Shown in pieces: positions 8,908-60,345 of a stretch of 64,000 bases of DNA. The DNA is from Taxillus chinensis. Taxonomy: Eukaryota > Streptophyta > Magnoliopsida > Santalales > Loranthaceae. The notes beneath the pieces were generated by a model. The model saw only the letters and a program-made list of their open reading frames with translations, ran no database searches and was not told the DNA's origin. Numbering within the stretch: position 1 is the stretch's first letter; each line of letters begins with the position of its first letter. The position numbers and the translations under genes are program-made. The DNA lies in NCBI GenBank assembly GCA_023512835.1, contig CM042085.1:40262189-40326188 (forward strand). The letters run 5' to 3'.

Positions 8908-8910
8908 ATT

Positions 8911-33423: not shown

Positions 33424-36129
33424 TTAAGGTACATAAGGCTTACTATACTTGAAGATCATTGTTGCTGCTTTCTCTATAAGCTCCATTGTCTGCTTCATCG
33501 AATAAGTGGTGTGTTGGCTCCAAGATTTGTCCACACTTAAGAATGACTTGATGAAGTAACAGACAAAGGCCCCGCAGCTATCTCCATCTGGCTGTTTTGG
33601 CACTTGCTTCTTGCCCCGGAATGTCACCTTCAGCTTCTCGGTCGGACTCAAAGGAGTGATGCCCAACTTTTCATATAATCCGGCTTTTTTCATAGCTTCA
33701 GTCAACCTGAGACACAGTGGTTCCCATTGATTCTTTCTTACATACTACTCTACAACCTGATGAGAATCAATCAGAATCATCTGTTTGGACTGAATCATGA
33801 AGACAACCATCATGAAATGTGGCGACATGATCCGGTACGAAATGAGGATAGTTGAGAGAGTTCTCCATGGCTTGCTATCCTCAGAAGTTCCGTCGATAAA
33901 GGACTGAATGATATCTACACTGGGAAGATAGCCCTCATTCCAGCACGGTAGAACTTCAAACAAGTGGCCGTCCTTGTATAGAGATGGAAACAGCCTCATC
34001 TCCATTTTAGCAGCCCTAGAGAAGTTGTCGATGTCATCTATTGTAAAGAGGCCTTTCTCCGATCAAAGGGTCCGAATGTCGTCCGGGGAGAAGGGGTACA
34101 AGTTAGAGAGACATCTTCTCTCGGTAATAGACGCAGAATAGGAAATCATTGCCTTACGCACGCTTTCGTCCGCATCAAGAGGGTCACACGCCGCGTATGA
34201 TGGCAGGAAGGTGTCAGCTGCGGATGGAGAGGATGGAGGAAAAGCTGCACTTGAGGAGCTTGGCTGAGAGAAGCGGCTACGTTTGGGGATTTGAACTCCC
34301 TGAAGCAATGAAGAGGCAGGCTGCTTCTCAGCACGAGTGGAGGAATATGATGCAGGAGCAGAAGGATCAGATGACACTCTCTCCCCCGGTTTGGCAGATC
34401 GCCGGGGAGCAACGGGAGGGCGAGCCATCGTGTGCGCCAGGTCTGTGAAGGAGGTAGACAAGGAGTGGACGGACGAGGCAACTAGGTCCATCTTCTGTTC
34501 CATGGAAGTGGAGGAGTCGGTGAGGGCGGAGAGGAGTTGGGCGCCAAGAGCATCAACCTTGGCGGCGATAGTGGATATTTAGGCGCTATGAGCTTGGGCG
34601 TGGCGGTCCAGCTGGGCGGAGAGCACAGCGCCGAAGTGGACCGTGCCAAAAGAAGCACGCCCAAGGGCCAACTCTGGAGCTTTGGAGGACTCCCCCACAT
34701 GAACAGGAGCAGGAGTGCGGCGGCGGAGGAGTCCCAGGGGGTATCGGCACCCGGTAGCGGAAGAGGCATCCGGAGCAGCAGACCCGCTTTGACCAGATAG
34801 GTCAACAATCGGAATAGCGACAGCAGGAGAAGAAGGTCCAGCCTTAGCAGGGGAAGGACTCCGTGCGGCATGGACCAGGCTGGAGGGGTTAGGGAACGAC
34901 ACATCTGGAATGGAGGCCGGCGTAAGAAAGCCTTGGTCCAAATTCCAGATGATCATGGTCTCTGGGGATTGGGTATGGCGAGTGTAAAACACCCGGAGAT
35001 CAGTGTCAGGAACGGAGGCGGTGTGGGCAAGGCTGAAATGGAGTCAAAGGTCCGTTAAGGTGTCACCGGAGAGATGGGCAAGGTAGGCTCGGGGTTGAGG
35101 TAAGGGAGGCAAAGGAGCTTCCAGAATAGATTCCGGGACATCAGCAATGGCGGCAGCAATGACGGTATCAACCGCGGCAGCAACGGCGGAAGTGGAGGGA
35201 GTGGGGACATCCGCAGCAGAAGGGGCTGAGGAAACAGCTTTAGGGACACTGCGCTGAGATGGCCCCGCAACCTTGGAGGGTTCGGGACGGATGCTGTGCT
35301 GGGAGGCCCGAGAAATGGAGGGGGCAGCAACGGACCGAATCCGGGAGGATCGGTGAGCAGAGTTGACGTCAGGGGCATGGCTGTCGGAGGGGTCACCAAC
35401 AGAACTGCCTTGTTGTTCCGTGGCAGGGAGAAGGCGCAGAGCTGCAGAGGGACAGCGGGCCGTTATGTTCCCATCAGGCGTAAGATGGCGAAGGTAATAA
35501 GCCGGAGGAAATGGAACAGCATCATAGCGGGCGAAATGGTCCGGATGAAGATGCCGGAAGACAATGCTTAGTATTCGCCCGAAGGAATGGTTCTTGGGTC
35601 CATTCTGCAGCAGTCGGAACAAAAACGTCCCCCGGTCCATCGGAAGAACTTCAAAAATGCCGTACATGGCCAGAAGAAGATCGTACGGAACAGAGTCCAG
35701 AGCAGAAATGCGAGCCAGTAAACATCGACTCAGTATGATCGCCATACAGCGATAATGACCTTGGAAGGACTTCACCTTGTATTCCTTGCCTTTATAGGTG
35801 CAACCCATAGAAGCCGCCATGGGATCGGCATCGGGGCGCTGTGGTTCACCGGGGGGTAGATTGAGAGCAGCACGAAGAACGGCGGGGGTGATTAGGATGG
35901 ATTCATCGCGAACAGAGGAGATGATGGAGTCGGTGGTACAGCGGATCCGTTGGTAGAACTCGAGAATGTCGTCTATAAGAAGATCGACAGGATTGGAGAT
36001 CAAGTTGAGTATGTGAGAGGCTTCTAGAAGAGGGCGAAGATAGAAAAACCAGTCCGGAGGGTTGGAGATAGTGCTCCAATCGACCAGATGGCTGGGATTG
36101 ATGCCGGAAAGAGAGGTTTTGGGTGCCAT
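33424..36129 (-). pseudogene. Extra ORF of the copia element: plant-transposon domain plus Ulp1-like protease
   Basis: Segments 35044-36129, 34579-34992, 34063-34503, 33745-34005 and 33424-33705 all lie in one reading frame of about 902 codons, broken only by in-frame stops at 35044, 34579, 34063 and 33745. The N-terminal 210 residues (LEFYQRI; GHYRCMAIILSRCLL; LDSVPYDLLLAMYGIF) resemble the 'putative plant transposon protein' family. Residues about 230-640 are rich in Ser, Pro and Ala. The C-terminus matches Ulp1/C48 proteases: His in SPHFMMVVF (codon 33817-33819), Asp in MILIDS (33766-33768) and Cys in KQPDGDSCGAFVC (33574-33576), 64 residues apart. Ulp1 enzymes cleave SUMO or similar tags; the role in the element is unknown. 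Start chosen at 36129; a TATA-like box lies upstream. Confidence 0.75.
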
Positions 36130-36242
36130 TGTACATGAAAGTTGAAGGGCGAGAGGGAAGGTGAGGTCTTGGGGATTGAAGGAGCAACGAGAGTTTTAGG
36201 GATTTGAAAAGGGTAACACTCGTGCTTTGCAGGAATGACCAG

Positions 36243-36252
36243 AATATATAAG
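36243..36252 (-). promoter_or_regulatory. TATA-like box upstream of the copia extra ORF
   Basis: Minus strand TTATATATTC about 115 bases before the ATG at 36129. Together with the 1.6-kb gap after pol it suggests the ORF could have its own transcript, but TATA-like sequence is common in A/T-rich DNA. Confidence 0.35.
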
Positions 36253-37829
36253 ACCGAGTCCGTGAATGTCAGCGGGTCTAGGAATTTGGCGAGTGAAACA
36301 GTAAACCGCTTGACAGGCTGATGTCATTAGTCTTGATATCGGTGTGCCTCCGAATTAAAAGATGACGTGGAGACGGCATGACCAAGTAAGGGTAACAACT
36401 GTTTGCCTTCCTGGGGAAGTGTGTGCATCCCGAGACATGCATTCAATGAATCATCATTATTCCTCCTCAAAAGCACGCGATATATAATAAGACATGGATT
36501 ATCGTAATTTGACAGTGTCAGGAGTCCGGAGGAATGAATCGACAATCATCCGGAATCAACGATAGTCGAGTGATGAGTATCCGGATGAAAAGTAGACCGT
36601 GTCCGTAGTAACAGAGTGCGGTGAGAGAGAAGTAGATTCCTTTGCTGTCAATAAGTCGAAGAGAAGAGAAATACCACAACACTTCAAATCCAAGACTATG
36701 GACTAGATTTATCGATAAGGTTGCAAAGAAAATCTGAACTTGTAGCTTCACAAAAAAATAAACTAAAAGTACAAAAGCTTAACAGGCTAGGATTAGTACG
36801 GATAGAAGAAAATAGTCAGTGAAGAGCTATATAATCCGAACTAATGAGAAACAAAACTTATGCATTACAAAGAATGAAATAGACATATACATACTAGAGA
36901 ATGATCAATGTGACTGAATCAGGGCATATGTTAGATAATAAATACACAAGTTCATATAGGTTAACATAGCGAAACCGTCTTGCTGAACGACGTAGCTAAG
37001 ATTAATTAAAAATCATATGATTTGACCAAACTAGGATTCATGAGTGAAAAATGAGGAAGCGGACACATGTCAAAAGCAAGCAGTTGATTATCCGATTAAA
37101 ATGCATGGTTGAAGAAAAAAAAACATCCAAGCATGCCTCAATTCTGTTTCAACAACGCATGTCCAGTCAGATCCGGAAGTAAAGGTTTAGAGGAGGGAGT
37201 ATCTGAGACATATTAGGGGGTTATTACAGAGGTAATAGATGAAGCTTAGGCTCCCCCGTATATCATTCGATCCTCTCAATGAAAAGCTCCCCCTCGAATA
37301 GATAGCCAGGAAAGAGGTCATGAGATATATACGGGGGGTATTACTCGAATAATTTATAAAGTATTTTCTCCCCCGTAGATTGTGCAATCCTCTCGGTAGA
37401 CCTTTTCGGCTTAAAGAAATTCAGCACTGTCTATCTTTTTAGGAAACTATACTTCAGAAGCTGATCAGACTACGATTGCGTATTCATCCACCAGGCATTC
37501 CGAGCTAACCCATTTCATTTCTTCAACTATACATGTTAATAGAGTAATCTAAATGAACAGGCATTTGTCATGTGGTGATCAGCGGAAATTAAGATCATGA
37601 AACCAGAATGAGGTTAATCATATAAACTTTAATCATGTTTGCTTAAACGACTTCAGTCGGGAAACACAAGCATCTTCCCAATATGAAGTTGATATCAATA
37701 TTAGAAGCATGAAGCACGTTAAAGAGTAAGTATGATCAACATTAAGATCAGTATGTATTTACTACTATAAATAAAAGCACAATGCATGTTCTGAAAGTAA
37801 GTATATTGTTGGGTAATTTAAATGTGAAA
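36253..37829 (-). other. Non-coding spacer between copia pol and the extra ORF
   Basis: A/T-rich and without a convincing reading frame. It contains two related 60-base blocks with TCCCCCGTA near 37255 and 37372, each next to CCTCTCAAT/CCTCTCGGT, in an imperfect direct repeat of about 115 bases (37210-37400). Confidence 0.5.
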
Positions 37830-39425
37830 CTATGCAGAGAAGTCAAGCATACCTAATCGGAAGAGTAGTTCAGAGAATCTTGCATCAGGTAGGGGCTTTG
37901 TAAGTATGTCTGCAGTTGATCTTCGAAGAGCAACATGTTCCAGTGAGATGTGACTTTTGAGAACATGGTCGCGTATGAAGTGATACCTGACCTCAATATG
38001 CTTCGTCTTAGGGTGCATGACAGGATTGTTGCTGATAGCAATTGCGCTAGTGTTGTCACAGTAGAGTGGAATAGATGACATGTTGAAACCGTAGTCAGTA
38101 AGTTGACTTTGCATCCAGAGTAGCTGTGCGCAGCAACTCCCAGCAACTATATATTCCGCCTCAGCAGTAGAGGTTGATACTGACACGTAGCACTTGTGCT
38201 TTTCAAGAAACTGACACGTACCACTTGTGCTTTTCCTGTCGATGCGACACCCAGCGAAGTCAGCATCAGAGTATCCGGATAAGGTGAAGTTGGACTCCTT
38301 TGGGTACCAGAGTCCCAAATTCATCGTTCCCTTGAGATACCTTAATATTCGTTTAACATGAAGCATATGTGACTCCTTGGGATTCGCCTGATATCGTGCA
38401 CAGATGCAAGTTGCAAACATAATGTCTGGGCGACTTGCTGTAAGATACAGCAAGGATCCTATCATCCCTCTGTAGTCAGTCACATTTACTGATATTCCAT
38501 ACACATCAGGATCTAACTTGGCACTGACTGGCATGGGAGTTTTGACGGGAGATGAACCTTCCATACCAAACTTCTTAATAAGATCGCGAGTGTACTTAGC
38601 TTGATTAATGAAGATTCCTTCCTTCAATTGTTTAACTTCTATTCCAAGGAAGTAGGACAGTTCTCCCATCATGCTCATCTCAAACTTGCCTGTCATCAAC
38701 TTTGCAAACTCTTCACAAAGCTTCGGATTTGTTGATCCGAAAATGATATCATCCACGTATATCTGTACGATTAGAGTGTGTCCTTTCTCTTTTCGTAGAA
38801 ATAAGGTGGTGTCTATCTTCCCTTTTTGGAAGTTGTGAGCAAGTAGGAATTCTGACAGTGTGTCGTACCAGGCTCTTGGAGCTTGCTTCAAACCATATAA
38901 AGCTTTCCGAAGCTTGTAGACTAAATATCCTGCCTTAGGTTCAATGAAACCGGGAGGTTGTTCAACGTACACCTCCTCTTGAAGATCTCTATTCAGGAAT
39001 GCGCTTTTGACGTCCATTTGATAAACTATGAAGTTTTCATATGAAGCATACACTAGAAACATTCGGGTTGCCTCAAGTCTTGCTACCGGAGCAAAGGTCT
39101 CATCATAGTCTATTCCTTCTTCTTGATAATATCCTTTGGCTACCAGTCTGGCTTTGTTCCGGATTACTATTCCATCTGTATCAAGCTTGTTCCGGAACAC
39201 CCGTTTAACTCCAATGACTTGCTGAGACTTAGGCCTTGGTACTAGAGTCCACACGTTATTTCTCTTAAATTGATTCAGCTCTTCTTGCATGGCTTCTATC
39301 CAATTCGAATCCTGAAGAGCTTCATCTACCACCTTTGGTTCTATTTGAGATAGAAAACATGAGTAAAGACACATGTTGAAAGTGGCTGCTCTTGTTCTTA
39401 CACCAGCAGTAGGATCACCAATCAC
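37830..39425 (-). pseudogene. Copia reverse transcriptase and RNase H
   Basis: A continuous frame of 531 residues that is nearly complete. It reads [85 protein letters not shown] and the catalytic [11 protein letters not shown] (RT_2 type), then the RNase H part with [28 protein letters not shown] and [14 protein letters not shown]. It makes cDNA from element RNA. The domain itself looks intact, but a frameshift separates it from integrase (39422-39763), so the polyprotein is broken. Confidence 0.9.
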
Positions 39426-39762
39426 TTGATCTGAGGGATGGTTTCGGGTCCATCTGTAATTCTGTGCATGTGATGGTTGATCTTGAATAATTTGAAGCTC
39501 TGCCAGATTAGGTGGTTCAGGTATATCTGCTGGTTGAGCTTCTTCCGAACCAGATGTTTCCGTATTAGAAGGTACGGTAGAACTAGGTGGTTCTTCAACA
39601 CTGTTTCTTTCAGTGTTAACTGGTCCGAATGAGCTTGAAGGTGCTCCGGAATTTTGGGTATCCGAAGGAGTATGTCCGGAGCTTGATGGTAGTCATGAGT
39701 CCGAATCATCCGTAGCATCATCCATATAATTTCTTTGTGCCTCGCTGATGCCACGTGGTTGG

Positions 39763-40545
39763 TCAGAATGTGTAGCAGGAACATTCATAACCTTCGAATA
39801 GTCGATGTTGTTGTCCTGGGACCTGTACATTAGAACTTGAAGAAGCAACTTTTGACCAATCAAGATTAGTTTCATCAAAGGTCACATGGATAGATTCTTC
39901 AACTTTAAAAAGTTTTCTATTGAAGACCCGATAAGCCTTGCTATATAATGAGTACCCGACAAAAATCTCATCATCAGATTTTGGTTCAAATTTATTTCGG
40001 GTTTCTTTGCCATTTATCAATATATAGCAATTACACCCGAAAGCTCTAAACTGTGAAATTGAAGGCTTTCATCCTCTCCACATCTCATAGGGTGTTTTAA
40101 TGGTAGATTTATTTATTAGAGTTCTATTCTGAACATAGCAGGCAGTGGACACAGCTTCAGCCCATAGACTGAGAGGAAGCGTTGCCCCTGCTAACATAGA
40201 TCTGCCAGCCTCGACTAAAGTACGATTCTTGCGCTTAGCTACCCCATTTTGTTGTGGAGTTCTGGGCGTGGAGAAGTCATGCTGAATGCCCTGTTCAGAA
40301 CAATATGATCTCATATCTGAAAAATCAAATTCTGTACCATGATCACTCCTGATGCACTTTATGCTCAGTCCTTGTGAGTTGCTTATCCAGTTGAAAAGAT
40401 CTACAAGATGCTCAAAAGTTTGATCCTTTGATTTCATGAACATCACCCATGTGTATCTGGTGAAATCATCGATAACCACAAGGGTATATTTCGCACCAGC
40501 CAGCGAAGGAACAGAAATAGGACCACAGAGGTCCATATGAAGAAG
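39763..40545 (-). pseudogene. Copia integrase core and C-terminus
   Basis: Segment 40069-40536 reads MDLCGPISVPSL, VVIDDFTRYTWVMFMK, IRSDHGTEF and TPRTPQQNGVAKRKNRTLVE. The first two catalytic Asp are present, but the third acidic residue (Glu in NGVxERKNR of the family) is Lys (AAG). Segment 39763-40020 has the C-terminal SDDEIFVGYSLYSKAYRVFN and HVTFDE motifs. In-frame stops at 40546 (before the core) and 40069 interrupt it. The enzyme would insert cDNA into the genome; this copy should be inactive. Confidence 0.9.
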
Positions 40546-41457
40546 TTATAGAGGAGTAGTTATTGAATTAACTGATTTGCTCTTAAAACTATGTTTGGTC
40601 TGTTTGCCAAGTTGGCATTCTCGACAGAGAGTGTCTCTGGAGTATTTGAGTTTAGGTAGACCAGTGACAAGATCAAGTGACGCTAACTTAGACAATGTCT
40701 TAAAGTTTAAATGTGCGCATCGCTTGTGCCATAACCAACTATCTTCATCTGAAGCTTTAGTGAGGAAGCATACAGGGTCAGAAGAATTATTTCTTAAGAC
40801 CACTAAGTATATATCCCCATCTCTTGATCCGGATAACTTAACATCTACAGATAAGTTTTCCCTTACTGTACAGGTGTTGGACATAAAGGAAACAATAAAT
40901 CCTTTGTCACATAAATTACTGACACTTAGCAAATTATGCTTCAAACCTTTGACTAGTGCAACTCTAGTGATTGATACACAGCCGTTGGTTAAAGTGCCAT
41001 ACCCGACAGTCTTTCCTTTGCTAAGTCTTTCACCATATGAAACGGATGGACCTCGTTTTTCATTAACTTCTACAAGCAGAGTCTGATCACCCGTCATATG
41101 TCCGGAGCATCCACTATCGAGGATCCACTTGCTTTGATTGATCTTTAACTTCAAGTGATCCGGCAGTGCATTCCAGAGATGCTCCTAAAAGACAACAGTT
41201 TACACTTTTGGTGCCCAAACTTGTTTCGGGCGGTTAGAAAGAACAACAGTAATGTCAACAGTTCCGGATTTGACTTTGCTAGGACTTTTAGCTCTCCAAA
41301 TTGACTTTAATTTGTTATTTTCAGCTGCTTCTTTTATTTGGGTTATCTTGGGAGAGACACTCATTTGAGGTTTAGATTTTGTTTTGCTCGAAGAACCCTT
41401 TTTATTGAACTGATCTTTATTGGTACGAATTTGATTACAAAGCCAGTTATCAGACAA
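40546..41457 (-). pseudogene. Copia protease and gag-pre-integrase domain
   Basis: WILDSGCSGHMTGD is the aspartic protease active site (DSG). It is followed by the zinc-binding pre-integrase segment LWHKRCAHLNFKTLSKL..CRECQLGKQTKHSF (HHCC pattern). The upstream piece 41200-41457 continues a Cys/His-rich segment (CSICREIDRYHCECW). A stop lies between the two pieces near 41200, and a frameshift toward gag between 41460 and 41708. Confidence 0.85.
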
Positions 41458-41707
41458 ACTCCAACATTCACAGTGATAACGATCTATTTCCCTACAGATG
41501 GAACAGACACTATAATGCGGAGTACAAACAGGGGATGGGATACAGGTCTCTTAGATTTTACAGACTTTCTACTCTGTTCTCTGTGGCCTAATCCATTGCG
41601 TTTGGGTGACGCGCTCTTGGCCCTAGATGCGTCAGCCTTAGCCTTTCCTTTCTTTTTGGGTGCTACAGTTTTGGCTTTAACTGCAGCAACCTTCCCTTCA
41701 TCATTAG

Positions 41708-43501
41708 TTACAGGCTACGCTTCGGGAAGTGCAAGAATGTGACCTCGACTCCACAGTCATAAACTATGGTGCTGCTTGAAATGAAACCATCCAACGGTTT
41801 AGACGTACTAACAGGATATAAGTTGGTTAGTTTTGGAGTGAAATTCGGAGGACACTCAGTAGCTTGAGCATTGGAGGTTGATGATTTGGAGCCTAGGCCA
41901 GGTTTGACTCGAATATTATCCGGATTAGTCCTAAATGAAGAGGCTATTTCCCCATATTTAAGCCACTTACGATTTATTTCCTTTTCCTGTTCAAGTTCAT
42001 TCTCGAGTCTTTTTACAATAACTTTTAGGCCTGAGAGATTGGTATTTAGCAGATGATTTTCAGCCCTTAGATCGTGATACCAAGCTTCTTTTCCTCTGAA
42101 GTCAGCTATGTCTTTTTCAAGTCTAGTAATAGTAAATTCAAGACATATATTCTGACTTTCCATATCTTTGTACATTTGAGTAATTATTAGTCTCTCATTC
42201 TTTTCATGATCACGTTCAGTAATAAGAGATTATATTTTACTCATGAGCTCAGAGATAGAAGGTACCTCAGTATTTGCCATGAGGCAGACGTTCGGCTTAG
42301 GAGTTGGCTCATCATCCGAGGATTCCTCCTCTTCTTCCGAGCCACTGATGTACTTTGTCACAAATGCCTTCCTCTTGTTCTTGCTGTTGTCTGAGGTGGT
42401 ACGTCGAGGAGTAACCTTGTCACTTTTCTCTATCGTCTTAGATTTGGATCTGCATTCCTTGGCCCAGTGACTGGGTTTCCCACAACTAAAGCATTCTTGG
42501 GAGCTCGACTCCGATCGCTTCTTCCTTCTGGATGATGAGGGGCCTCTTCTGAATCCTTTTCTACTTTTCCAAAGGAATCGTTTAAAGGATTTGACAAAAA
42601 GAGCTATTTCCTCTTCTGCGTCTGAGTCAGAATTCTCTGACTCATCCGTATCATCCTTTTGATGGTTACTGGAGTATTCCGTAGCTTTGAGGGCTACCCC
42701 TTTTTCTTTCCGAGCTATTTTCTCATCACTGTCAGTGTATCTGAATCTGACCTCATGAGTCCGAAGCTCTCCGTATATTTCTTCAAGGGTAGTAAACGGC
42801 CAGTTTTTGTCAGCTTGCATCTGGAGCTGGTTGGAGTAGTAGTGATCTGACAGGGATTGAAAGAACTTGTCATTGATTTGAGACTGAGTGTAGTGTTCAT
42901 TGACAGTTTTTAGCTCTAGAATGAGCTTTCCGAATCTCCGATAGATGCTCTCAAGGGATTCGCTAGGTTTGTGATTGAAACTCTCAAGGTTCTGTCTGAG
43001 AGCACATATCACATTTTGCATCTGGGACTGACTCCCCTCATAGAGGATTGTCAGTTTATCCCAGATAGCTTTTGCTGTCGTGCAACCCTGGACGTCCGTG
43101 AAAACCTCGGAATCCAAAGACGATGTAACGTAAGCTAGAGCCTTTTCGCTAGCGCACTGCCAGGCTCTTTCATCGTTGGTAAGTTCGGCATCCGTCTTTG
43201 GCCTTCTAACTCCATGTTCTCCGATAGTCATCAGAATTGGAATCTCCTGATGAAGACAGGGCCACATGAGATGATCATGGTATACCATAAACATCTTCAT
43301 GTGAGCTTTCCACTGGGAGAAAAGCTCAGGTGTGAATTTGGGCGGTTTTGTCAGAGTAAAACCAGAACTCCGTGGTTGAGGAGTGGCAGCAGCAGGTTGA
43401 GGTGGGTCGACGTTTTCACTGTTGCTTCGATTCGGGATGGGCTCTTGTGCACCTCCGGAGTTAAGGCGAGTGTTGAATAGCATACTGCTTTCTTCGGCCA
43501 T
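41708..43501 (-). pseudogene. Copia gag (capsid, CCHC knuckle, coiled coil)
   Basis: The frame opens at 43501 (MAEESSML); a GTG-started extension to 43561 overlaps the primer site and is not used. The capsid part reads FTLTKPPKFTPELFSQWKAH, DVQGCTTAKAIWDKL and ESLESIYRRFGKLI. CFSCGKPSHWAKEC is a CX2CX4HX4C zinc knuckle. After an in-frame stop at 42230 the same frame continues as a Lys/Glu-rich coiled coil (42175-41708). Long gag tails of this kind are usual in Maximus/SIRE. The protein packages element RNA. Confidence 0.9.
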
Positions 43502-43546
43502 TGCTGAGAGTGAAAGAGTGGGATCTCTACTTAGAACAAATAGAAC

Positions 43547-43560
43547 GTGCTTTGATACCA
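43547..43560 (-). other. Primer binding site of the copia element (tRNA-Met-like)
   Basis: Minus strand TGGTATCAAAGCAC two bases inside the LTR end (..ACCATCA at 43563); one change from the usual TGGTATCAGAGC. Confidence 0.85.
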
Positions 43561-43562
43561 CT

Positions 43563-44677
43563 TGATGGTTCCTTGGAGCCTAGAGGGGGGTGAATAGAAA
43601 CTCTTTTGATTCTCTTATCACACAACGCTTGTCTAGTTAAGTGATAGAATCACTGCAGAAGATAACCAAATAGTGGAATTATTTTGTTTTATTATCAAAA
43701 GATAAATACAACAAAATAGAAGCAAGACTCTTTTACACTTTGTTTACAAAAGGATTCACACACTAGCCTATATTATGTCTTTGAACTCTTGTGCATACAC
43801 AGGGTTGATTCAGGCTTGCTCGCATACACACTCTCAAATGTACAAGTATGAATATTTATAAAAACATTCCTAAGAGACAACCTTGGAACTTGTAGTTCCG
43901 GAATGCGTTTAGCATTAACTATTCCTCGGTAATCTCTCTGCCTTGACTGCTGTGGTTTGTGCAGATCAAGATCTTGGGTTTGAAGAGTATAAGTGCCTTT
44001 GTGAGTTCCCAAGTATAATTAAAGTTGTGTCCACATATCCGGGTGATCCACGTGTAAGATTCTTCAGGTTCTCAACGAGTTTGTCTTACATCGGGACACC
44101 ACGAGCTGATGACTTTAAATGCGGTAAGTTGAAGTAGCATCTTCTTGGTCCGGTGTAATTTTCCTTACTCCGTTGCTAATGAAGCTCGAAACCTTACTCC
44201 GTGTCAGTGGTTGCTTACTCCGTATCTATTTGGTATTGGAATCCTTAGTCCGTGTCAGCGCTTCCTTACTCCGTGTGAATGAGAAGGTCAGAGTGCTTAT
44301 TCCGGATCAGCGCTTCCTTACTCCGCATGTAAGTTCCTTACTCCGTACGAGTTTCTTACTCCATGCGAGTTTAAAGGATCGGATGGCTTACTCCGTACTA
44401 GCACATCCTTACTCCGCATGAGTGAGTGGTCCGGATTCCTTATTCCGCATCTGGTTTCCTTACTCCGTGCGAATAAAGACTCGGGTCCTTATTCCGCATC
44501 AGTACTTCCTTACTCCGTATGTATGGGGGACTTGATTATTTACCAAGTGTTTGACGACACTCACTCTCGTCCAGATCAGGATTATATATCTTGTCCTTAG
44601 CTTTGCTCTTACGAGTGTATCTCCGGATTAATAACATATCTTCTGCAGTGATTAAAGACAAAACACAAAAGATCTCA
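43563..44677 (-). repeat. 5' LTR of the copia element
   Basis: The left end TGATGGTTCCTTGGAGCC joins the primer site and is followed by the AGAGGGGGGTGAATAGA motif of Maximus LTRs. It matches 32170-33228 with few differences, then loses similarity after AAAGATCTCA near 44677, where repeat Y2 begins. The first 50 bases of U3 are therefore missing. TATAAATA on the minus strand lies near 43850-43860. Confidence 0.85.
44158..44530 (-). repeat. CTTACTCCG array, 5' LTR copy
   Basis: Same array as at 32703-33075 with unit order conserved; several units differ by one base between the two LTRs. Confidence 0.85.
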
Positions 44678-45619
44678 TCCGAAATTGCTTGGGGCTCAAT
44701 CGAAACCAATGACGAGAAATTTAGAGTCGCCACCAACAAGCTTTGAGGTACAGCTTGGATACCCTACTTTGAATAGTTTAAGGTGTGGTTCCAGATTATC
44801 ATACAAGGTTTCTGAGAGTTACATGTAGGGTGTTGATTAGCACCCCTGCCAATGCCCTTTTGGTATCTATTTCCTGGGAGGAGGAGGTTCTATTTATTTT
44901 CACTACCGTGATTGCCTAGTCGCGTTTTTTATTTAGGTCATTATTTGTTAAAGTTTATGGTTAAAATTGATTTATCTTAAATTTCTGTAAGGAATCCTAA
45001 AAGTTTTATTTTATTTTTTGTTTGAAGTGGAAAATTCCTAAGGTTTTTTTGTTTTTGTTTTTGCTTTTGCTTTTTCTTGCTTGTTTCCGTTTTCTTGTTT
45101 TTTTTTTGAAGTGGAAATTGAAATCCTAAGGTTTTGCTTTTTTTCTTTTTTTTTTTATTTCTAAATTATTCATTGGAAGTGGGATCCTAGATTTTGGTTT
45201 TGAAAACATTTTTTGTTTCGTTTGAAATATATTTTTGTTGGTTAAACCATTTTTTTATTTTTATTTTTGGTTTTGGAAAGGAACATATGTTATAAATTAA
45301 ATAAAAATAATATTTGTTTTTTTTTATTTTCATTTTTTTGTTTTTTTCTTAGCTAATGAAAATTTAATAACAAATCAAAATAAATATTGTGTGTGTGATA
45401 ATGACTTCCACAAAAAATAAAAAATAAACATTCACTTTTTTTTTTTCTTTCTTTTTCATGGCCTCTTTTGTTTCCTTTTTTTTAACTATTGGCTACTACA
45501 TATTACAACTTGAATAAAATAGAGAAAAATAATAACGAAATAAGAAAAACAATAAACGAAACAACTAAACAAAAATTAATAAGAAGGGAAAAATAAAATC
45601 ACAACAATAAATGCTAAGA

Positions 45620-45702
<83 letters not shown>

Positions 45703-46437: not shown

Positions 46438-46439
46438 GT

Positions 46440-46582
46440 GTCAAAGGTCAAAGTGTCAAAGGTCAAAGGTCAATGGGTCAAACGTCAAATGTCAAAAGGC
46501 AAGGGCCAAAGGTCACATGGTCGAAGGGTTGAAAGTCAAGGGTCGAGGGAAAAGGGTCGAAGGGTTAAAGGTCAAGGGTCGT
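46440..46582. repeat. GGTCAAA minisatellite
   Basis: About 16 short units of GGTCAAAG and variants (GGGTCGAAG, GGTCAAGG) in direct orientation, at the outer edge of copia-type element Z. Confidence 0.85.
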
Positions 46583-47284: not shown

Positions 47285-47296
47285 ATCTCCCCTTAT
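47285..47296 (-). other. Polypurine tract of element Z
   Basis: Minus strand AAGGGGAGATTG before the TGTTAGG LTR start, the same arrangement as in the copia element (33281-33293). Confidence 0.7.
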
Positions 47297-50551: not shown

Positions 50552-50582
<31 letters not shown>

Positions 50583-51366
50583 ATAACAATAACAATCCAA
50601 TGTCTGCCTACCAAATGGCCTAACTCAAAATGGATACCGTACAGTCATGCTCGACCTTAGGAAGATTGTCCTTGCTCTTGCTCCCATGCTAGATGCCGTC
50701 CACCCAGTCGAGTCACCCTTAGCAACAACAATCAGAACTCTCTCTTCTCCCTCTTTTAAGGCATGTAATGACAACAAAAACCCTAAACCTAAAACAAAGA
50801 GAGCTCCTCCTCCTTATATAGACACCTCACTTATCAAAAATGACGTAGTTTTGATAAGTGAAAACCCAACATCAAAACGACATAGTTTTGATAAGTGAAA
50901 CACACCTCATGAAAACGAAGTGAAGTTTGATAAATGAAACATGCTACCACCTTCCCAAACATCCACACAGGACAAAATACTTATAATTCAAACATGCCCC
51001 TTTAAGAAAAGATGATCGCATAACAAAACCAAGGTGACAAGACAAAAACAGGCTGCACGTGACAAAGACTATTGTCACGTGCAAGCTCCAAATGCCCTAG
51101 GATTTTACCACAAGCTTTAGAACTAAGTCTCTGAAGGCTCCCATCCAAAACATCACATCGTGACAAAGCCATTATCACGTGCATTGTCATGTGCAAGCTC
51201 TAAAAGCTCCCCCTTGAGCTCATCTCTTGGGCCTTATGCTGCTCACACACAAACAAGGTGTTCCACTAATGTGTGTGGGAATAAATCCTAAAAAACTCGA
51301 CAATCTTCTGCCACCCAAAAGGCATAACCTTGACTAACCTCACATCCCAAAACACGGGTCATTACA
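49563..51366 (-). mobile_element. Solo LTR of the Del-like family, minus strand
   Basis: Left end TATCACGCCCGGATTTCAAT, right end ..CACGGGTCATTACA, 1804 bp, flanked by a perfect 5-bp target duplication AGCAT (49558-49562 and 51367-51371). Minus-strand TATA at 50814-50820, ACGT palindromes at 50832-50855 and 50871-50893 with a degenerate third near 50910, CACGTG boxes at 51057, 51076 and 51177. A TA microsatellite sits at 50556-50582. Confidence 0.9.
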
Positions 51367-51776
51367 AGCATACTCAACATAAGCCATTACAAGCCCCTAA
51401 CCTTCAAGGCTCTAAGATTGGGCTCCGCCTCCACCTCATGCTCTCTATCCTCCGCAAGATCACCGGGCATCTCACTAATGAGCCTCTACCGGTGTAGATC
51501 AATGAGATAGGTTTTAGCTATTTCCTCCACCACATCAGCTATGCTTGTAGTCGTTAAAGACGCAGAGGAGACCCGAGAAGTCCGGGGGATAGGTGTGTGC
51601 TCGATCATTGTGGAATCCCGAACTCGGCCCTACCGTAGCCGGCCATGTCCCTGCATGACTTTTACATCGACCCTGTGTCGCTTCATCGGCTCGATTCCTC
51701 ATGACCATCCTCATAGATGCTTTTGAAGATATACTTTGGCCGGTAGTGGCACCAAGGGTCGGGTGTTCAACATATC

Positions 51777-53272
51777 CGATAAATATTACATTTATGCTAT
51801 TATTCTAGGCCATTTTAAGGTGTTTTAGAGGCGACCAGGCTTATCCCGCATGATAATTTGTATACATTTTGCTCTAACCCAAAGGAAGACACTTTGCATT
51901 GGATATAGTTGTGCTTTTTGAGTGGTTTTGGGAGATTTTTCTCACACACATTTGCTAGAATCACCTTATACACTCAAGAAGAAGCTTTGGGAAGACGATG
52001 GACTTAAAAGAAGCGAAATCAAGCTATACGTGACATAGCCATTGTCACGTGCAAGGTTTTTTCCGCGTGGTAGCCATCCACATGATCATAAAAAGCTTGG
52101 GGAGTGAATTTCAACTCATTTCAGGTGCACGTGACATGGCATCGTTGTCACGTGCATTGTCGTGTCAAGGATGTTTTTGCTCGAAGCTTGGTTTTCTTAT
52201 ATTGATGACTTTTCTCACAAAGAACCCGGTCCCAATTCAGCTTGGTTTGAGTTTTATTGATTTGAAGGAGGAATGGTCGTCACTTACCAAAACTATGTCG
52301 TTTTGGTAGAGGCACCAGTGCACTAGGGCACACTTTATACATGACCAGAACTTTATAAAAGGAGGGATCTTGGAGGCGCAACGCATTCGAGAGGCGAAAC
52401 GCATGGCAGAGGCTAGAGCAGCATTTCTGGAGAGAGACGGAAGAACTTTGGAGTGGGAAGGCTAGGGTTTCCAGGGAAGGAGAAATGTTGAAATTGTTAA
52501 TCATCTCTATTCCCTTTCTCTCTATTACCGTGTAATCATGTGTTATTATGGGTTTATTGTGATTGTGAGAATGATTATGGGGTAAAACTCTTGTTCTAAA
52601 GGGAGCAATGTAGCCCCCAATGTTCTAGGTACTTTTTGGTTATGGATTATGGTTGTTTAATTTGAGAATACTTTATTTCATATTTAGTTCATTGATGTTT
52701 GTTGTTAAATCTAATTTATGCATGATTAGATTATCTCGCCCTTGTCTAAGGTGGATTTTGGTGAACTAGGTTTAATGGTCATGATGGACCAAGTCTGCGA
52801 TTGTTAGATCGGTTATTTTCTCTGTCAATCCTTTATTCTCATGGACCAAATGGAATAAAAGACTTAAACCTTTCTTAACATGGACCAAGTGTAAGATTTG
52901 GGTAATGATCAATATGAATATGGAATTAATTGATTGGTTTAAGAACAAGTACCATAACCAAAATATTATCAAGCATTGGGTGGTGAAATTGTGATACTAG
53001 ATCCTTTAATTCATTGCTATCTTCAAATTGCATTACAATCTCAACGGTTTTTGCATTTTTGCATGTTTAAAACTTAGACTTTAATTTAAAACACAAAAAT
53101 CAATTGTTCGGACATAAATTAAATTTGCTAGCTTGTGTCATTGCCGCTAAAGATTAGTTACCTCCTATGGGTTTGACAACCTGGAGTTTAAATACTTTAA
53201 TTTATTACTTGACCAAGACACTTGCTGCTTAAACCTATCAAACCAATTTATTTAGGTTAAGTTTTTCATGCA
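51777..53272 (+). repeat. 5' LTR of element F (Athila-like)
   Basis: Plus-strand LTR starting CGATAAATATTACATTTATG (TGATAACGTGC.. in relatives) and ending ..TTTTTCATGCA. U3 has paired CACGTG boxes (52036, 52127, 52149), the palindrome variant ACCAAAACTATGTCGTTTTGGT at 52286-52307, and TTTATAAAAGG at 52351-52361. It is related to the 3' LTR of element E in opposite orientation. GATTGGAGGCAAGCC after 53272 may be a decayed tRNA-Asp primer site. Confidence 0.8.
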
Positions 53273-54720
53273 GATTGGAGGCAAGCCAAATGTTGTTAGG
53301 ATTAGGTGACATTAAGTGATCGAGTAAATTTGTGATCTAGAATTTTTTAATTTTCTGTTTTCTAGTGCGGTGTTACCCGTATTCCTCTATTTTGCTATTT
53401 CTTAGGGGTGCAACATAGGTGTTTGAGAAAATTCATCGTGTATGCTTCATACCCAAAGTGATTCTTGCCTTTGATCCAGAGATGAATGGACTTTACGTGA
53501 GCAACGAAGAGCTAATAAAGTATTAGCCGCAGCCCAAACAGCAGTTGACTGATTTACACACCTTGTGTGAAGAAATAATGGACAAACATAACAAGAGAGG
53601 ACCATGTACACAATGTAGGTCAGATGAATGATAATGGACAAGTGGTCAGCAGCAACGTACTTTCATGGATTATGGAAGACCCTATCCTTTCGGATGAATA
53701 TTAGGCATCGAAGAGTACCACCAAGAAAATAATTTTGAGCTAAAGCCGACATTACTTCGATGGTTGGGCAGGAAGCTTCCGTAGGTTTAGCATTAGATGA
53801 TCCACACAATTATCTAACGAGGTTCCTCCAAATATGTGATACGATAAAAATCAATGGAGTTTCGGATGATACAACAAGCCCCGACTCTTCCCATTTTCTT
53901 GAAGGATAGAGTGCTTGGATGGTTCCAATCTCTACCAGCTGTATATTACCACATGGGATCAAATGGTGGAGAAGTTCCTCTCTAAGTACTTTCCACCAAC
54001 TTAGGTGATGATTCGAGGAGTCAAATCTACGGTTCGACGGCATAGTGATGAATCTCTCTATGAAACTTGGGAGAGGTTCAAGGACTTGGTTAGGCGCTTC
54101 CATAAGCATGGAAGATGGAATGGTTGCGAAGGTCTTTCCTTTATGGGCTCTGAACCAACTATAAGAAATATGGTTGATGCCACATTGGAGGAGCCTTTAT
54201 GATGATGGAACTTAACTATCTCTGTTGAAATTTGTTAGATAAAATGGTAATATCTAACTGTCAATGGTTCACTCGATCAGCGTGCTAAGTCTAAACCAGT
54301 CATGCAATTTCCAATTCAAATCCATTGGAAGAGCTAACCGAGAAAATAGAGATGTTAACTAAGTAAATGTGAGTCATGGCATGTGAGAATGGAGGGAGGG
54401 ACTGATCGTAAAGTCATTGTTGGAGAGAATCAATTGCTCAATCCCTTGAGGAAGCTCAATATGTTGGTAGAGGAGGAGGTTTCCGGGAGATAATTTCCAA
54501 ACGTATCAAAACCCTTCAACAACCAACAATTACCAAAATCATGGAGGAACTCAGCATTTTCAAAGCAGCCATACATATGGCAGAGGCGTAACAAAGCTCT
54601 AGACAATGGAGCTCCACAATATGGTGAGAGTTCTCACTTCAACTACGTCCAAGATTTGAAGCTTCCATAGCATAAGGGGAAAGATAAGGAAAAAGCTAAA
54701 GACGAAGAGATGAGGAATTT
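53273..54720 (+). pseudogene. gag pseudogene of element F with leader
   Basis: 53273-53700 is leader. From about 53780 the plus strand reads DPHNYLTRFLQICDTIKINGVSDD and, after frameshifts, MKLGRGSRTWLGASI-type capsid sequence (to 54190). Near 54440-54600 it reads EEAQYVGRGGGFR and NNYQNHGGTQHFQSSHTYG, the Gln/Asn-rich gag tail of Athila elements. Several stops and frameshifts break it. No protease or RT follows; the element is cut at about 54720-54750 by the inverted LTR of element E. Confidence 0.75.
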
Positions 54721-54749
54721 TTCTAAAAGCTTCTTCTTAAGTGTATAAG

Positions 54750-56272
54750 GTGACCTAAGTAAATTAGTTTGATAGGTTTAAGACAAATGACCAGGTCAAG
54801 TAATAAAGTAAAGTATTTAAACTCGGGTTGTCAAACCCACAGGAGGTACCTTCCTATTAGGGCACCAAGCACCAAGCACCAAGCTTAAGCTTATGTCCTG
54901 GACAATTGATTACACTTGTAATTTAAGTTAAACTACGTAACTTGTAAATTCGGTAAAATCTTGAGAAATGGTTGGGTTTAACCAACGCCCTCTATAGAGC
55001 TTTTCAGTTAGTTTTAAGTGATTCTAGTTAACAATTTCACCACCCACAGCCTTGCAATATTCTAGTTTTACCACTTGCTTGAAAACATTGAATTAATTCC
55101 AAGTTTATAATGGTCATCACCCAACGCCCTAATACTTGGTCCATGAAAAGGGAAGTTAGTCTTTTAAACCATTTGGTCCATGAGAATAAAAGTGTTCAAA
55201 GGAAAACAACCAATTCAACATATCTGAGACTTGGTCCATCATGTAATATCAAATCTAGTTCATCAAATTTGCACCCCAGACAAGGGCTAAGATAGTCTAA
55301 CCATGCATACATCGGAATTTGCATAAAAACATTAATGAACTAATTAAAAACCTAGAGTTTCACATAAAAGCAAGCAAAATTCCGTAATCCGGAACATTAC
55401 AAGTCCATGGGGGCTAGATTGCTCCCCTGAAGTAAGGTTTTACCCCATAATCATGTTTACAAACCCGAAAATTTAATAACTCATGATTACAATACCGGTA
55501 GAGAGAGAGAGAGAGAGAGAGAGAGAATAGATATGATTAACAACCCCAACACTTCTCCTTCTCTCGCGTAAACCCTAGCCGTCAAAACTCGAAAGCCGCT
55601 TTGTTCTCCCAATATAGCTTTGCTCTCGCCTCGTTTGCATTTTCCACCAAGTCGGAATGCCTTGCGGCTCCAAAATCCCTCCTTTTGGTAAATGCAGTGT
55701 ATCAGAGCAAAGTGTGCCCTGGTGCTGGTTACTCGTTACCAAAACGACGTAGTTTTGGTAAATGAAGGCGATTCCTCTCTCCAAATCTCAATAAAAGTCA
55801 AACCAAGCAAAATTGGGGCCAGATTCTTGCAGAAAAGTCATCGATAAGAAACCAAGCTCTGAGCAAAACATCCTTGCACGCGGCAACACACGTGACAACG
55901 GCCATGTCACGCGCAATCCGTAATGAGTCGAAATTCACCTAGAGATTCCTATAATCATGTAGAAGGCTCCACGCAAAAATCCCTTGCTCCGTGACAATGG
56001 TCATTGTCACGTGCGCACTTTGATTTTGCCTTCTTTTGAGTCCATCTTCTTCCAAAAGCTTCTTCTTGAGCGTCTAGCGTGATCTAGCAAAGCGTAGCGA
56101 GAAAAATCTCCCAAAACCTGTCAAAACCACTCAAAAAGCACAACTATATCCAAAATAGCGTCTTCCTTCGAGTTAGAAAGTAAATATACGCAAGTTATCA
56201 TCAAATAATCCTCATTACACTCTAAAACACCCTAAATATGGCCTAGAATAATGGCATAAACGCACGTTATCA
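54750..56272 (-). repeat. 3' LTR of element E
   Basis: The right end ..CGCACGTTATCA at 56272 gives a TGATAACGTGC start. Inside are the palindrome ACCAAAACGACGTAGTTTTGGT at 55738-55759, CACGTG or degenerate boxes near 55888-55915 and 56004-56013, and a GA microsatellite (55500-55527). The TATA of relative F (TTTATAAAAGG) reads TTTACCAAAAGG here. The left end is unclear: at 54727-54755 a short U3-type piece (AAGCTTCTTCTTAAGTGTAT) is fused to it. Confidence 0.75.
55500..55527. repeat. GA microsatellite in the leader part of the E LTR
   Basis: About 14 GA units downstream of the (mutated) TATA position on the minus strand, as in the other LTRs. Confidence 0.9.
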
Positions 56273-57652
56273 AACACACCACACTCAACCATTGCTTGTC
56301 CTCAAGCAAAACACACAAACATGCAAAAAGAAACAAACACACAACAACCGAAAGATAAATAAAATAACAAACAAAGAGAGGCATAGCTCTCAAGTGCTCA
56401 CAATCAATTGACGAAATGTACATTCTAACAGCTTTTATGAATTATAAATTAATTCCAACATGTCTATACTTTCAAGTCCAACAACCATGTAATGTCATTA
56501 CCTAAAATTCTCACATGACAAACATGCAATGATAAAACAAAACTTATTTCCCATTAAGTCCTTACCACGATTCAACACGCCTCACTTAAATGTATCTTTT
56601 CTTTCCTATCAAACCCCGAACGTTAATAACTACTAGCTAATAAGAATGTTTTACTCTCCCACTATACTTAGCCGCACTTAAGTTCTTGCCAAGTAAACAT
56701 GAAAAGTCCCCATCAGGACTCATCAAATAAAACACACACTCTACTTTATCAAACTCACACATTGCTCTAAACTCATTGACTCACACTCCTTTTCTAATCA
56801 TGATCAACACACCCGAGCCAATGAATTAAGCTCAAAACTTCTCACAACAAAAGCAACTCACCTATCAGTCGCAAACCAAACCATAACACACATAAACATC
56901 ACCCATTTTAAACTTTTTTTCATAGTTTTTTTTAATTAATAACCTTACAAGGTCGTAATTTATGCTCCTTGATGGATTATTCGCTCATTTTTTCAACCCT
57001 TTCATTACATAAAATATGGCGTTTAACCGCTTTTTAACATCAATCTAATTACACACTAGGATACTTTTAGAAATCATCGTAACTTAATGTTCTCGTATCA
57101 CTAGTATCACACACCAAACACCCAGCTACTAATGAATAATTTTCATGCCTAATCCATTCCAACCATTAAATATCCAAAGATTTATTTAAAAGAATAAAAA
57201 TGTTAACCCTATAACCCATGAAGTTCACTCAAAGGTATGACGGAAAAATTAAGCTCTCAAACACATTTTTTTTACTCCAAGGTTAGCTAAACTTACGCTA
57301 CCATGTCATGCTCAGCTACTATTCAAACTTTAGCTCTTAAAACATGGTGATATCATGCAAGAAGATATACATGCTTCAAACCCATAACACACCTTACTAT
57401 CAAACTCTTTTATCATATACGACATTTCAGTCTCAAAAAACCAAAGTCGTTTACCTCAGATCATGCTACTCACATGCAAAACACATAGTCACATAACTCA
57501 AACAATCAAACCTAAACAAAAAATCACTCATGTAAAGAAAAAAATTCAATCATACAACAAGACAAAAATAAATGACTCATATGACCCCCCCACCCACACC
57601 ACACTTAAAAATGTGCTATGTCCTCAGAGTATGGTATAAGGGAAAGAAGACA
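56273..57652 (-). other. 3' untranslated region of element E
   Basis: It begins with the polypurine-like AGTGTGGTGTGTT (minus, 56273-56290) next to the LTR. It is A/T-rich, has no supported reading frame, and matches the corresponding part of element D (26617-28130) in order. Confidence 0.65.
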
Positions 57653-58832
57653 CTTACCCGAGGGGGGTAAGTCGTAGAAGAAAATAATACGGGCCACCAT
57701 ACTCCTAAGCGCGCTACAAATTCTGAAGATGTTTCCCGGTGAGCGCTCAGTATCCTTACGTCGCAACGCAGCTAGCAAATAATAACATACAAAAATCCCA
57801 CAACGGAATCGGTCGCCAGGTGGGGAAGTTCCATTTCATTCAAGGCATGAGAGGGAACTTGGATGTCGTGAGCCCTTATTTCCTGAGTGCGTCTTTGATT
57901 TTTCTCAAGAAATCATGGACTATCTTCTTCTTCCGTGTAGCAAATCCATGTGCTTGGCAAGGATCATACAATACCACATGTCCCACACGTAGATCCAACT
58001 GAAGAAGCACAAAATGGCGGTCTACAAGGACAGGGATTAGGACCTCTTGCACTTGATGCCAAGAGTGATGACCTTCTGCAGCTCCATTTATTCTTTGACG
58101 AAAAACATGCTCTACCAGAGGCTGCTCATATAGTTCACACAGCATGATGGAAGTGTATTGTGCCATAAGGTAGTCATTAGGCTCCGCCTCCACTACATGC
58201 TGCATGGTTCTACAAAAAAGATCAACATCATCCGCACATAAATATTCATTAGCTAAGATCTGCTGCAGGTAGGACAATGTGAACACTTCGGAATCCCTTG
58301 CAAATTGCGCTTGCCAAGCTCCACCATGAAGAAACTGCTCAAACTCTGTTGTGGCCTTAGGAGTTGACAAGGCTGGATTGATAGTGACATATATTGGCTT
58401 GCCTAATAAATCCTCTTGTGCAGCCTCTGAAGAAGCACCAGACCACCATTGGAGAGGCTGAATCATTGGAATGAGAGCATGAGAAGAGCTAAGGACTGAC
58501 TGAGGCTCAAATGGAGCTGATGCTATTGGGTGAAAGTATGACTGATAAGCATGAGTCTCCTCCTCCTGGGGGTATTGTGGATACTCAGGTGTTTCCTCAG
58601 TCTGATCAAACTCGGGTTGCGCTGAAGGCGAATTTGCAGGTTCTGTCTCCTCGGAAAGGTCTACAACTTGGTGTTTTGTAAACTTCTTCTTTTTGCCCAA
58701 AGCTTTCCAAATTTTTCCAGTATTCCCTTCACTTCTTTTTGCTCTTTGATTAAAATGGATTGGCTCTTTTACAATTGTCCAATTTGTTGCTTGGTCACTG
58801 CCTGTTCTTCTTGAAGTTGATCTGTTCTTCAC
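57653..58832 (-). pseudogene. Extra ORF of element E, C-terminal half: Ulp1-like protease
   Basis: The frame at 57876-58832 begins with a basic, Glu/Pro/Ser-rich stretch and then a folded part (LSYLQQILANEYLCADDVDL) ending in VDRHFVLLQLDL (His codon 58014-58016) and GHVVLYDP (Asp 57963-57965). After a stop and frameshift another minus frame reads RCGIFVCYYLLAALRRKD with Cys at 57800-57802. His, Asp and Cys follow the order and spacing of Ulp1/C48 proteases. The usual Gln before Cys is not seen. This is the same domain as in the copia extra ORF, in another superfamily. Substrate and role are unknown. Confidence 0.7.
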
Positions 58833-59095
58833 TTTGGATCTTCATAAGACGAGCCAAATGGTGCATCAGGGGCTTCCCATGCTCTTGCTGATGGTAGTGA
58901 AGTTGCTTACTAGTCCTAGGATAGAAATTCCAACAACTCCTCTAACTGGATACGAGTTATGTGTCCATTGGTGAAGGCCCAATTGATCACCTTAGCTTCA
59001 CTTATAACCTGCCCACTAATTCCTTGAAAGAAGTTGTACACATCTGCCTTATGGACATTATATTGCATGTAGAGAGCAGTCAACTGGAATCTATA

Positions 59096-59980
59096 CTATT
59101 TTCTTGCATTCATGGGAGTAGATGTGTCTCTAGAATGTTCAGGAGGCCTTTCCATGTGCACATTATGCCGTGAGGACTGCGGTGCAGTGGGAGTACTAGC
59201 TCCCCATTTCCCTCTGAAACTAACCGCTAGAGACCCTTCAGGTTGAAGGACTCTCAATATCAAATTAGATGGGAAGATGGTAGGTTCTACATGTACACAC
59301 AAGTGCGCATACTGAGAGTGAAACAACATGCTCAACACCCTCCCATATAATCGTTTATTCACTTCTCTTTTCCAAAGCTGAAAGATCTAAGCTGCCCAGT
59401 CAATGTTTAGTTGATGGTCAATGCAGTACATAAACTCAAGATGAGATTTTGGCACCGAATTAACCCCACTAGTCTGCAACAATAGACACTTTCCTACCAA
59501 GTGGGCAAGGCATCTATATTTCCCTAGAAATCCATTTTTGGTGAACTGCCTTCTTCTCCCAAATTCCCTACTAAAATTAAATGCTCTACTGTAAGCTTTT
59601 AAGCTTAAATTAGGGATTTCTTGTGAAGGATTTGGGAGATCAAAACAGTCTCTAATCATAGCAGGTGAAATAGAGATTAAAACTCCTTTAACTTCTCCAA
59701 TTATTTCATCATCCTCTTCATTCACATATACTGAGTTATAGAACTCATGCATAGCAGGGTAGAATAAATCACTTCGGGCAGAGACTAACCTTTTTAAACC
59801 AAGGGTTTGAAGCTTTAGCATCACTTCTTCTGCCCAATCAATATTTGGTGATTCCAGAACCCCCCAGTTTAGCACGTGTCCAATGAAAATCTCCTCTTCT
59901 CCTGGTATCTCAGAAGGTGAGGATGGGGCTGAGGCTTCTGGTGTGGCTACTCCCAAGTGTGCCCTTTTGGTTTGCACCAT
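59096..59980 (-). pseudogene. Extra ORF of element E, N-terminal half: plant-transposon domain
   Basis: The open frame reaches 60097, but the TATA-like box at 60064-60070 lies inside that part, so the likely start is the ATG at 59980 (MVQTKRAHLG). It reads MHEFYNSVYV, VLISISPAMIRDCFDLP, GKYRCLAHLVGKCLL and GVNSVPKSHLEFMYCI. These align with the copia extra ORF (LEFYQRI, ILITPAVLRAALNLP, GHYRCMAIILSRCLL, LDSVPYDLLLAMYGI). An in-frame stop at 59387 is followed by continuation to 59096; a frameshift then leads to the protease half. No transmembrane segment or signal peptide is evident, which argues against an envelope protein. Confidence 0.7.
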
Positions 59981-60051
59981 AGTTGTAGAACAAAGATGTG
60001 ATCTTGCAGAATAAGGGAAAGAGAAGAGGCTATTTGTGAAGCTGTGGCATA

Positions 60052-60345
60052 GGCTTCTCCTCCTTATATAATACCAAATTGGAGAATGAATTGACATTTT
60101 TGACCAAGCAAATGGGCTTCAATGATGTCACGGGCAGACCAAAGATGGTTCTAGAGGATGCCTGCTATCTCCCATTAAAATTTCAAAGCAAAAGGACGCA
60201 AAACCCACTTGCACGTGACATCGCATTGTCGTGGGCAGGGCTAAATTAGTCCAAATTTTTCCCACAAGTCACGGATGCATAGTACTATCAAAATCAGTCT
60301 GCACATGATAAGACCGGATGTCACGGGCAGCCCTTTTTAGCCTCA
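60052..60345 (-). promoter_or_regulatory. U3-like internal promoter upstream of the extra ORF of E
   Basis: On the minus strand from 60345: GCCCGTGACATC..CATGTGCAGA (60305-60336), then GCCCACGACAA..GTCACGTGCAAG (60210-60242), inverted CACGTG-type pairs like those in the U3 regions of the LTRs, then TATATAAGGAGGAGAAGCC at 60070-60052. This last string is identical over 19 bases to 3704-3722 in the LTR of element 1. The ATG at 59980 lies about 70 bases beyond. The layout is that of an LTR promoter without the rest of the LTR, inside an element. Confidence 0.6.

Follow-up and report, generated by a model that had tools for sequence, protein, structure and literature searches.

How do two long terminal repeat (LTR) retrotransposons of different superfamilies come to carry the same extra gene? 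The question is raised by a stretch of 64,000 nucleotides of Taxillus chinensis DNA (GCA_023512835.1, contig CM042085.1, positions 40,262,189 to 40,326,188 of the forward strand), here called the window. In it, a SIRE-type copia element and an Athila-like gypsy element each contain an additional open reading frame (ORF) between pol and the 3′ LTR, the slot in which the env-like ORFs of Sireviruses and Athila elements occur (PMC7264820, PMC6317226, PMC2829016). The two ORFs are colinear homologues that share four blocks and have unrelated middles, and both copies in the window are broken and dead.

Homology and decay of the two accessory ORFs

Pieces of the two ORFs were compared pairwise by local alignment, with 1000 shuffles for each of 11 pairs. 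In four pairs none of the 1000 shuffles reached the observed score. The N-terminal blocks scored 168 compared with 33.3 ± 5.2 for shuffled sequences (p 1.8e-15), the tails of the N domain 63 compared with 30.3 ± 4.6 (p 6.7e-5), the halves with His and Asp 67 compared with 28.1 ± 4.4 (p 6.4e-6), and the Cys halves 52 compared with 23.0 ± 4.1 (p 6.5e-5). The remaining 7 of the 11 pairs were not significant: two of them involved the copia middle, two the short middle piece of Athila, and three were crossed controls. BLASTP of the N-terminal regions gave 29% identity over 161 residues (E 2e-18). With the copia N piece as query, a tblastn search of the window (E up to 1e-3) recovered the query and a single other match, the Athila piece (217 residues, E 1.4e-20); no further copy of the ORF was detected at this threshold. 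The first-pass annotation of this DNA had proposed that the ORFs are homologous at the N-terminus and encode the same two-domain protein, and these comparisons bear out both proposals.

The copia pieces were also ranked against all other stop-free pieces of the window, after removal of those that overlapped the query (295 pieces of at least 60 amino acids for the N piece, 300 for the His/Asp half and 301 for the Cys half). The Athila counterpart ranked first for all three queries. For the N piece the top score of 168 was followed by 68 for a piece of the copia ORF itself and 63 for the next Athila piece.

The annotation had the coordinates of the ORFs right, but the coding strand is minus in both; a plus-strand reading was rejected, the translated plus frames being full of stops. 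The copia ORF runs from 36129 to 33424 in a single frame of 902 codons that is interrupted by four stops and closed by a fifth. Over the same interval the remaining minus-strand frames contain 30 and 40 stops, and shuffled DNA averages 30.4, with no fewer than 17 in any of 500 shuffles. Stops and frame changes interrupt the gypsy ORF, which extends from 60097 to approximately 57608. Because the copia ORF keeps one frame with so few stops at only about 29% identity to the Athila form, and lies in sense orientation between pol and the terminal polypurine tract (PPT), it was probably a live gene until recently. The coordinates are collected in Table 1.

The base composition of the copia ORF (33424-36129) is G+C 53% with a CpG observed/expected ratio of 0.75, compared with 42% and 0.57 in copia gag-pol. 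The Athila ORF is no richer than Athila pol (43% and 0.32 compared with 44% and 0.38).

Table 1. Features of the two accessory ORFs and of their host elements (positions in the window).
Feature	Position	Strand	Remarks
copia extra ORF (env-like slot)	33424..36129	-	4 internal stops
N-terminal conserved block, copia	35464..36090	-	similar to two Athila pieces; extent from tblastn
Non-conserved Pro/Ser/Ala-rich middle, copia	34066..35043	-	by composition; not significantly similar to any Athila piece tested
C48-like His/Asp half, copia	33748..34062	-	His codon 33819-33817, Asp 33768-33766
C48 Gln/Cys half, copia	33427..33744	-	Gln codon 33594-33592, Cys 33576-33574; PF02902 E 7.3e-5
Athila extra ORF (env-like slot)	57608..60097	-	five stop-free pieces, two frames
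N-terminal block, Transposase_32-like, Athila	59390..59878	-	PF20167
N-domain tail, Athila	59228..59386	-	p 6.7e-5 to copia
Middle and C48-like His/Asp half, Athila	57879..58841	-	His codon 58016-58014, Asp 57965-57963; p 6.4e-6 to copia
C48-like Cys half, Athila	57608..57835	-	Cys codon 57802-57800; p 6.5e-5 to copia
5′ LTR, SIRE-type copia	43563..44738	-	start inferred from TGTTGG; first ~40 bp unlike 3′ LTR; ends CA
3′ LTR, copia	32169..33280	-	distal end lost
5′ LTR/primer binding site (PBS) junction, copia	43549..43564	-	CA/AGTGG/TATCAAAGC
gag piece with zinc knuckle, copia	42233..43579	-	Retrotran_gag_2 1.2e-19; zf-CCHC 6.7e-4, slightly under its cut-off
pol piece (GAG-pre-integrase), copia	40549..41184	-	gag_pre-integrs 4.6e-18, Pol_BBD 9.1e-13
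Reverse transcriptase (RT) piece (RVT_2), copia	37833..39692	-	9.2e-75
Terminal PPT, copia	33281..33290	-	TGGGGGAG-AT, then LTR TG
RT piece, Athila-like	62495..63415	-	RVT_1 6.6e-24
Integrase piece, Athila-like	60764..62197	-	rve 3.6e-17, Integrase_H2C2 2.1e-16
Probable 3′ LTR, Athila-like	54750..56271	-	from resemblance to LTR-type copies elsewhere in the window and boundary sequence; approximate

Domain identity and catalytic residues

The Cys half of the copia ORF matches the Peptidase_C48 family (PF02902) at 23.1 bits, above the Pfam cut-off of 20.7. The copia ORF has His, Asp, Gln and Cys in order and at the usual C48 spacing, for which the standard residue spacing of Ulp1 serves as the yardstick. 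His and Asp are 17 residues apart in both ORFs, and Gln and Cys are six apart in copia. When the Protein Data Bank (PDB) was searched by sequence, the best match of the copia Cys half was SENP1, which aligns with it at Gln and Cys. Recognition of the Athila protease half depends entirely on its similarity to the copia one. In both ORFs Phe follows the His, where yeast Ulp1 and the SENP enzymes have Trp, so the substrate could differ and may not be SUMO.

The Athila N-terminal block resembles Transposase_32 (PF20167) with E values of 1.5e-6 to 7.4e-7 and 28.7 to 29.7 bits, below the Pfam cut-off of 45. It appears to be related to this family without being filed as a member. The other searches of the PDB by sequence returned one ribosomal protein for the N domain (E 2.2) and one response regulator for the Athila protease piece (E 0.32). 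The copia His/Asp half had no match there with an E value of 10 or less, and an NCBIfam scan of four pieces gave one irrelevant match (E 0.072).

The two host elements

The window consists of LTR-retrotransposon DNA in which many pieces are repeated or nested, and its element types are those of a plant. The copia element spans approximately 44738-32169 on the minus strand, and its LTRs are 95.4% identical over 1075 bp (43622-44696 and 32169-33243). In Sireviruses the LTR/PBS consensus is CA/ATTGG/TATCAGAGC, with a described G variant, and the terminal PPT reads AGGGGGAG-AT/TG (PMC2829016). The 16-base junction of the copia element, CAAGTGGTATCAAAGC, agrees with the Sirevirus CAATTGGTATCAGAGC at 14 of 16 positions, and one of the two mismatches is the described G variant. 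Its PPT octamer, TGGGGGAG-AT/TG, begins 10 bp before the 3′ LTR and has one mismatch to the Sirevirus form. A run of C stops 22 bp short of the LTR end; in position alone, this is close to the average of 21 bp for the 19-bp C-rich integrase signal of Sireviruses. By its LTR/PBS junction and PPT-AT/TG, the copia host fits the Sirevirus/SIRE lineage, and its ORF therefore sits in the slot known there as the env-like gene. A point against this assignment is that clustered identical PPT copies after the ORF and next to the 3′ LTR, a mark of Sireviruses, were not found in the copia element. Six PPT matches with at most one mismatch occur in its linker and ORF, three before the ORF (one of them exact), two inside it and only the terminal one after it. 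A simple search with exact words of 7-12 bases over 33180-33400 found no inverted repeat around the terminal PPT; this repeat is reported to be absent in three elements (PMC2829016).

Both copia LTRs seem to open with TGTTGG. The next 40 or so bases are strongly divergent (44697-44738 and 33244-33280), yet the adjoining 1075 bp are 95% identical.

The Athila-like element extends from beyond 64000 to approximately 54750 on the minus strand. It combines gypsy RT and integrase domains with a sense ORF at the 3′ side, features that are needed for an Athila element and are not sufficient. The putative assignment to Athila comes from the first-pass annotation and agrees with known motifs. A second Athila-like RT fragment (5091-5927, minus strand) has 55% protein identity to 62495-63415, and no extra ORF was detected alongside it. 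LTR-like stretches at 51791-53257 and 54753-56260 lie in opposite orientation and are 73% identical.

Elsewhere in the window, a short element at 25134-31615 has an LTR pair (25134-26615 and 30119-31615) of 91% identity and no detected extra ORF. A third copy of its LTR lies at 8721-10392. At 23372-23661 a unit of about 40 bases is repeated in tandem.

Origin, function and known systems

The RT pieces of the copia and Athila elements gave a local alignment score of 37, compared with 35.1 ± 4.6 for 300 shuffles. RT is normally among the best conserved proteins of retroelements. Since the accessory ORFs are similar where the RTs are not, plain inheritance from a common ancestor of copia and gypsy elements is unlikely. 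The first-pass annotation had assigned the hosts to different superfamilies and suggested that the module was either exchanged or captured twice. The first view agrees with the RVT_2 match of copia, the RVT_1, rve and H2C2 matches of gypsy and the dissimilar RTs, and the second with ORFs that are clearly similar in hosts whose RTs are not. Judged from these alignments, the module was either exchanged between element lineages or taken twice from a common source.

We consider it fairly probable, from the sequence, that the ORFs represent one shared Transposase_32-type and C48 accessory gene that moved between lineages and would encode a soluble protease in intact relatives. Both elements would carry one accessory gene family in the env-like slot. 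Its product would begin with a Transposase_32-type domain and end in a C48 (Ulp1-type) cysteine protease, the two being joined by a flexible linker that evolves fast. The gene may have moved by template switching between RNAs packaged together, or it may have been captured more than once from a common pool of transposon genes. Intact relatives would then produce a soluble protease, likely a working cysteine protease, and not a membrane envelope. The N domain may position the protein, and the C48 domain may cut a ubiquitin-like conjugate or a protein precursor, with a cleavage that could help replication or evade silencing. Desumoylation by the module, and an action on silencing proteins of the element or the host, as the first-pass annotation had suggested, would be possible functions. 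A bolder proposal is that the SIRE and Athila "env" genes are partly one exchanged gene, not an envelope, whose ubiquitin-like-protein protease and Transposase_32-type targeting domain remove SUMO, or a tag like it, from factors that act in silencing or integration; this we regard as doubtful.

Several results weigh against the shared protease gene. The comparison rests on two sequences, both of them broken. The His/Asp and Cys halves are parted by a stop in copia and lie in different frames in Athila. The copia match to PF02902 covers just 33 of the 217 profile positions, and the SENP1 match is weak (E 0.11). In the rank test, the Athila Cys half came first by one point only (52 compared with 51 among the 301 pieces), so homology of the Cys halves rests on order and the shared CGxFVCY motif, not on score alone. 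The annotation had both ORFs ending in a C48-like protease with His, Asp and Cys in order. This stands for copia, with its profile match above the cut-off; it stands less well for Athila, in which none of the five scanned ORF pieces matches PF02902, His, Asp and Cys are spread across a frame change, and the Gln expected six residues ahead of the Cys is missing. The Pfam search that the annotation had proposed reached its family with the copia Cys half; the Athila match to PF20167 stayed below the cut-off, and the N block of copia had no match in Pfam. AlphaFold gave two models of the N domain from two-row alignments, both worthless, with a mean predicted local distance difference test score of 37.2 and 36.3.

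It is also possible that each element captured the module independently, from one gene family of the host or of DNA transposons and with no exchange between retroelements, although we give this less credence than the shared, mobile gene. The source could be, for example, Ulp1-bearing Mutator-like elements of plants (Kaonashi). Mutator transposons of several plants carry Ulp1 (PMC2836005), and the extra ORFs of SIRE elements fall into 19 dissimilar groups, which the authors of that survey read as fast evolution or several sources (PMC6317226). However, the N domain, the position of the linker and the C48-like domain share order and slot, and to capture the same pair twice needs more steps. Because domain pair, order and slot agree in both elements, exchange is favoured, with roughly twice the weight of two captures. 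The richness of the window in nested and neighbouring elements would allow the copia ORF to be an old piece of Athila that was inserted there by accident and not a gene of the copia family. This is very improbable: over its 902 codons the copia ORF keeps one frame with just four internal stops, it is only about 29% identical to the Athila form, and it agrees with the Sirevirus env-like ORF in orientation and in lying between pol and the terminal PPT.

As to function, a protein with the C48 fold that works only by binding, without protease activity, is unlikely, though less so than the accidental insertion. The lack of Gln six residues before the Cys in Athila and the Phe after His in both ORFs speak for it. 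Against this, copia has His, Asp, Gln and Cys at the standard spacing of Ulp1, and the gap in Athila may be decay. The least probable explanation is an envelope-like membrane protein, as SIRE and Athila ORFs have been called. The position between pol and the 3′ LTR agrees with it (PMC7264820, PMC2829016), and a scan of 19-residue hydropathy found two copia windows of 1.63 and 1.64, at the edge of the usual range of membrane helices. However, one of these is Ala-rich and contains Asp, the other spans the catalytic His, the Athila windows do not exceed 1.37, and copia matches the C48 profile. These values are borderline at most, and neither ORF seems to contain a convincing membrane segment.

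The role of the env-like ORF in plant retrotransposons is stated as not experimentally proven (PMC2829016). A shared protease module would give at least one such family a role that can be tested. It also suggests that plant copia and gypsy elements can pass accessory genes to one another, as retroelement classes do in rotifers. Relatives beyond the window were confirmed neither in viral_contigs (copia N piece, N alignment, copia RT and Athila integrase) nor in genome_contigs (Athila N piece), two collections that are not meant for plant DNA. Ulp1 in plant and animal DNA transposons (PMC2836005), Transposase_32 in Athila (PMC11728184) and the sharing of ORFs across classes (PMC5408684) are already known. 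A limited literature search found no description of the Transposase_32-like and C48 pair in both SIRE and Athila, and a word search of PMC3726574 found none of four terms. That the pair is unreported can be claimed only weakly. There is a real chance that it has already been tabulated, and the supplement of PMC6317226 may list C48 matches.

Among the closest known systems is Athila 14 of sunflower, which has Transposase_32 (PF20167) in an additional 3′ ORF of 487 amino acids (PMC11728184). It shares with our gypsy element the Athila lineage, a sense 3′ ORF and a Transposase_32-like domain. The sunflower protein has a nuclear localisation signal (PMC11728184), which would fit a nuclear role of the module. 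It differs in that "Ulp1" and "C48" do not occur in the main text of PMC11728184, whereas here a C48-like domain follows and the pair is also found in a SIRE copia element. The env-like gene of Sirevirus/SIRE elements (eORF-3′F; PMC2829016, PMC6317226) agrees with the copia ORF in lineage, position and orientation, but is described as env-like and highly variable, with 19 groups in one survey (PMC6317226). "Ulp1" does not occur in the main texts of PMC2829016 and PMC6317226, nor "Peptidase_C48" or "pfam02902" in the main text of PMC6317226. Ulp1 domains are described in plant Mutator and in Ginger1 transposons (PMC2836005), so a C48 domain carried by a transposable element is common to these systems and ours. 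Those are DNA transposons, with Ulp1 fused to the transposase in Ginger1, whereas the elements here are LTR retrotransposons with a Transposase_32-like partner. In bdelloid rotifers, types of ORF3 are common to LTR and Penelope-like retroelements (PMC5408684). As in the window, one accessory enzyme ORF is found in unrelated retroelement classes, although in rotifers the enzymes (DEDDy, GDSL) and the hosts are different.

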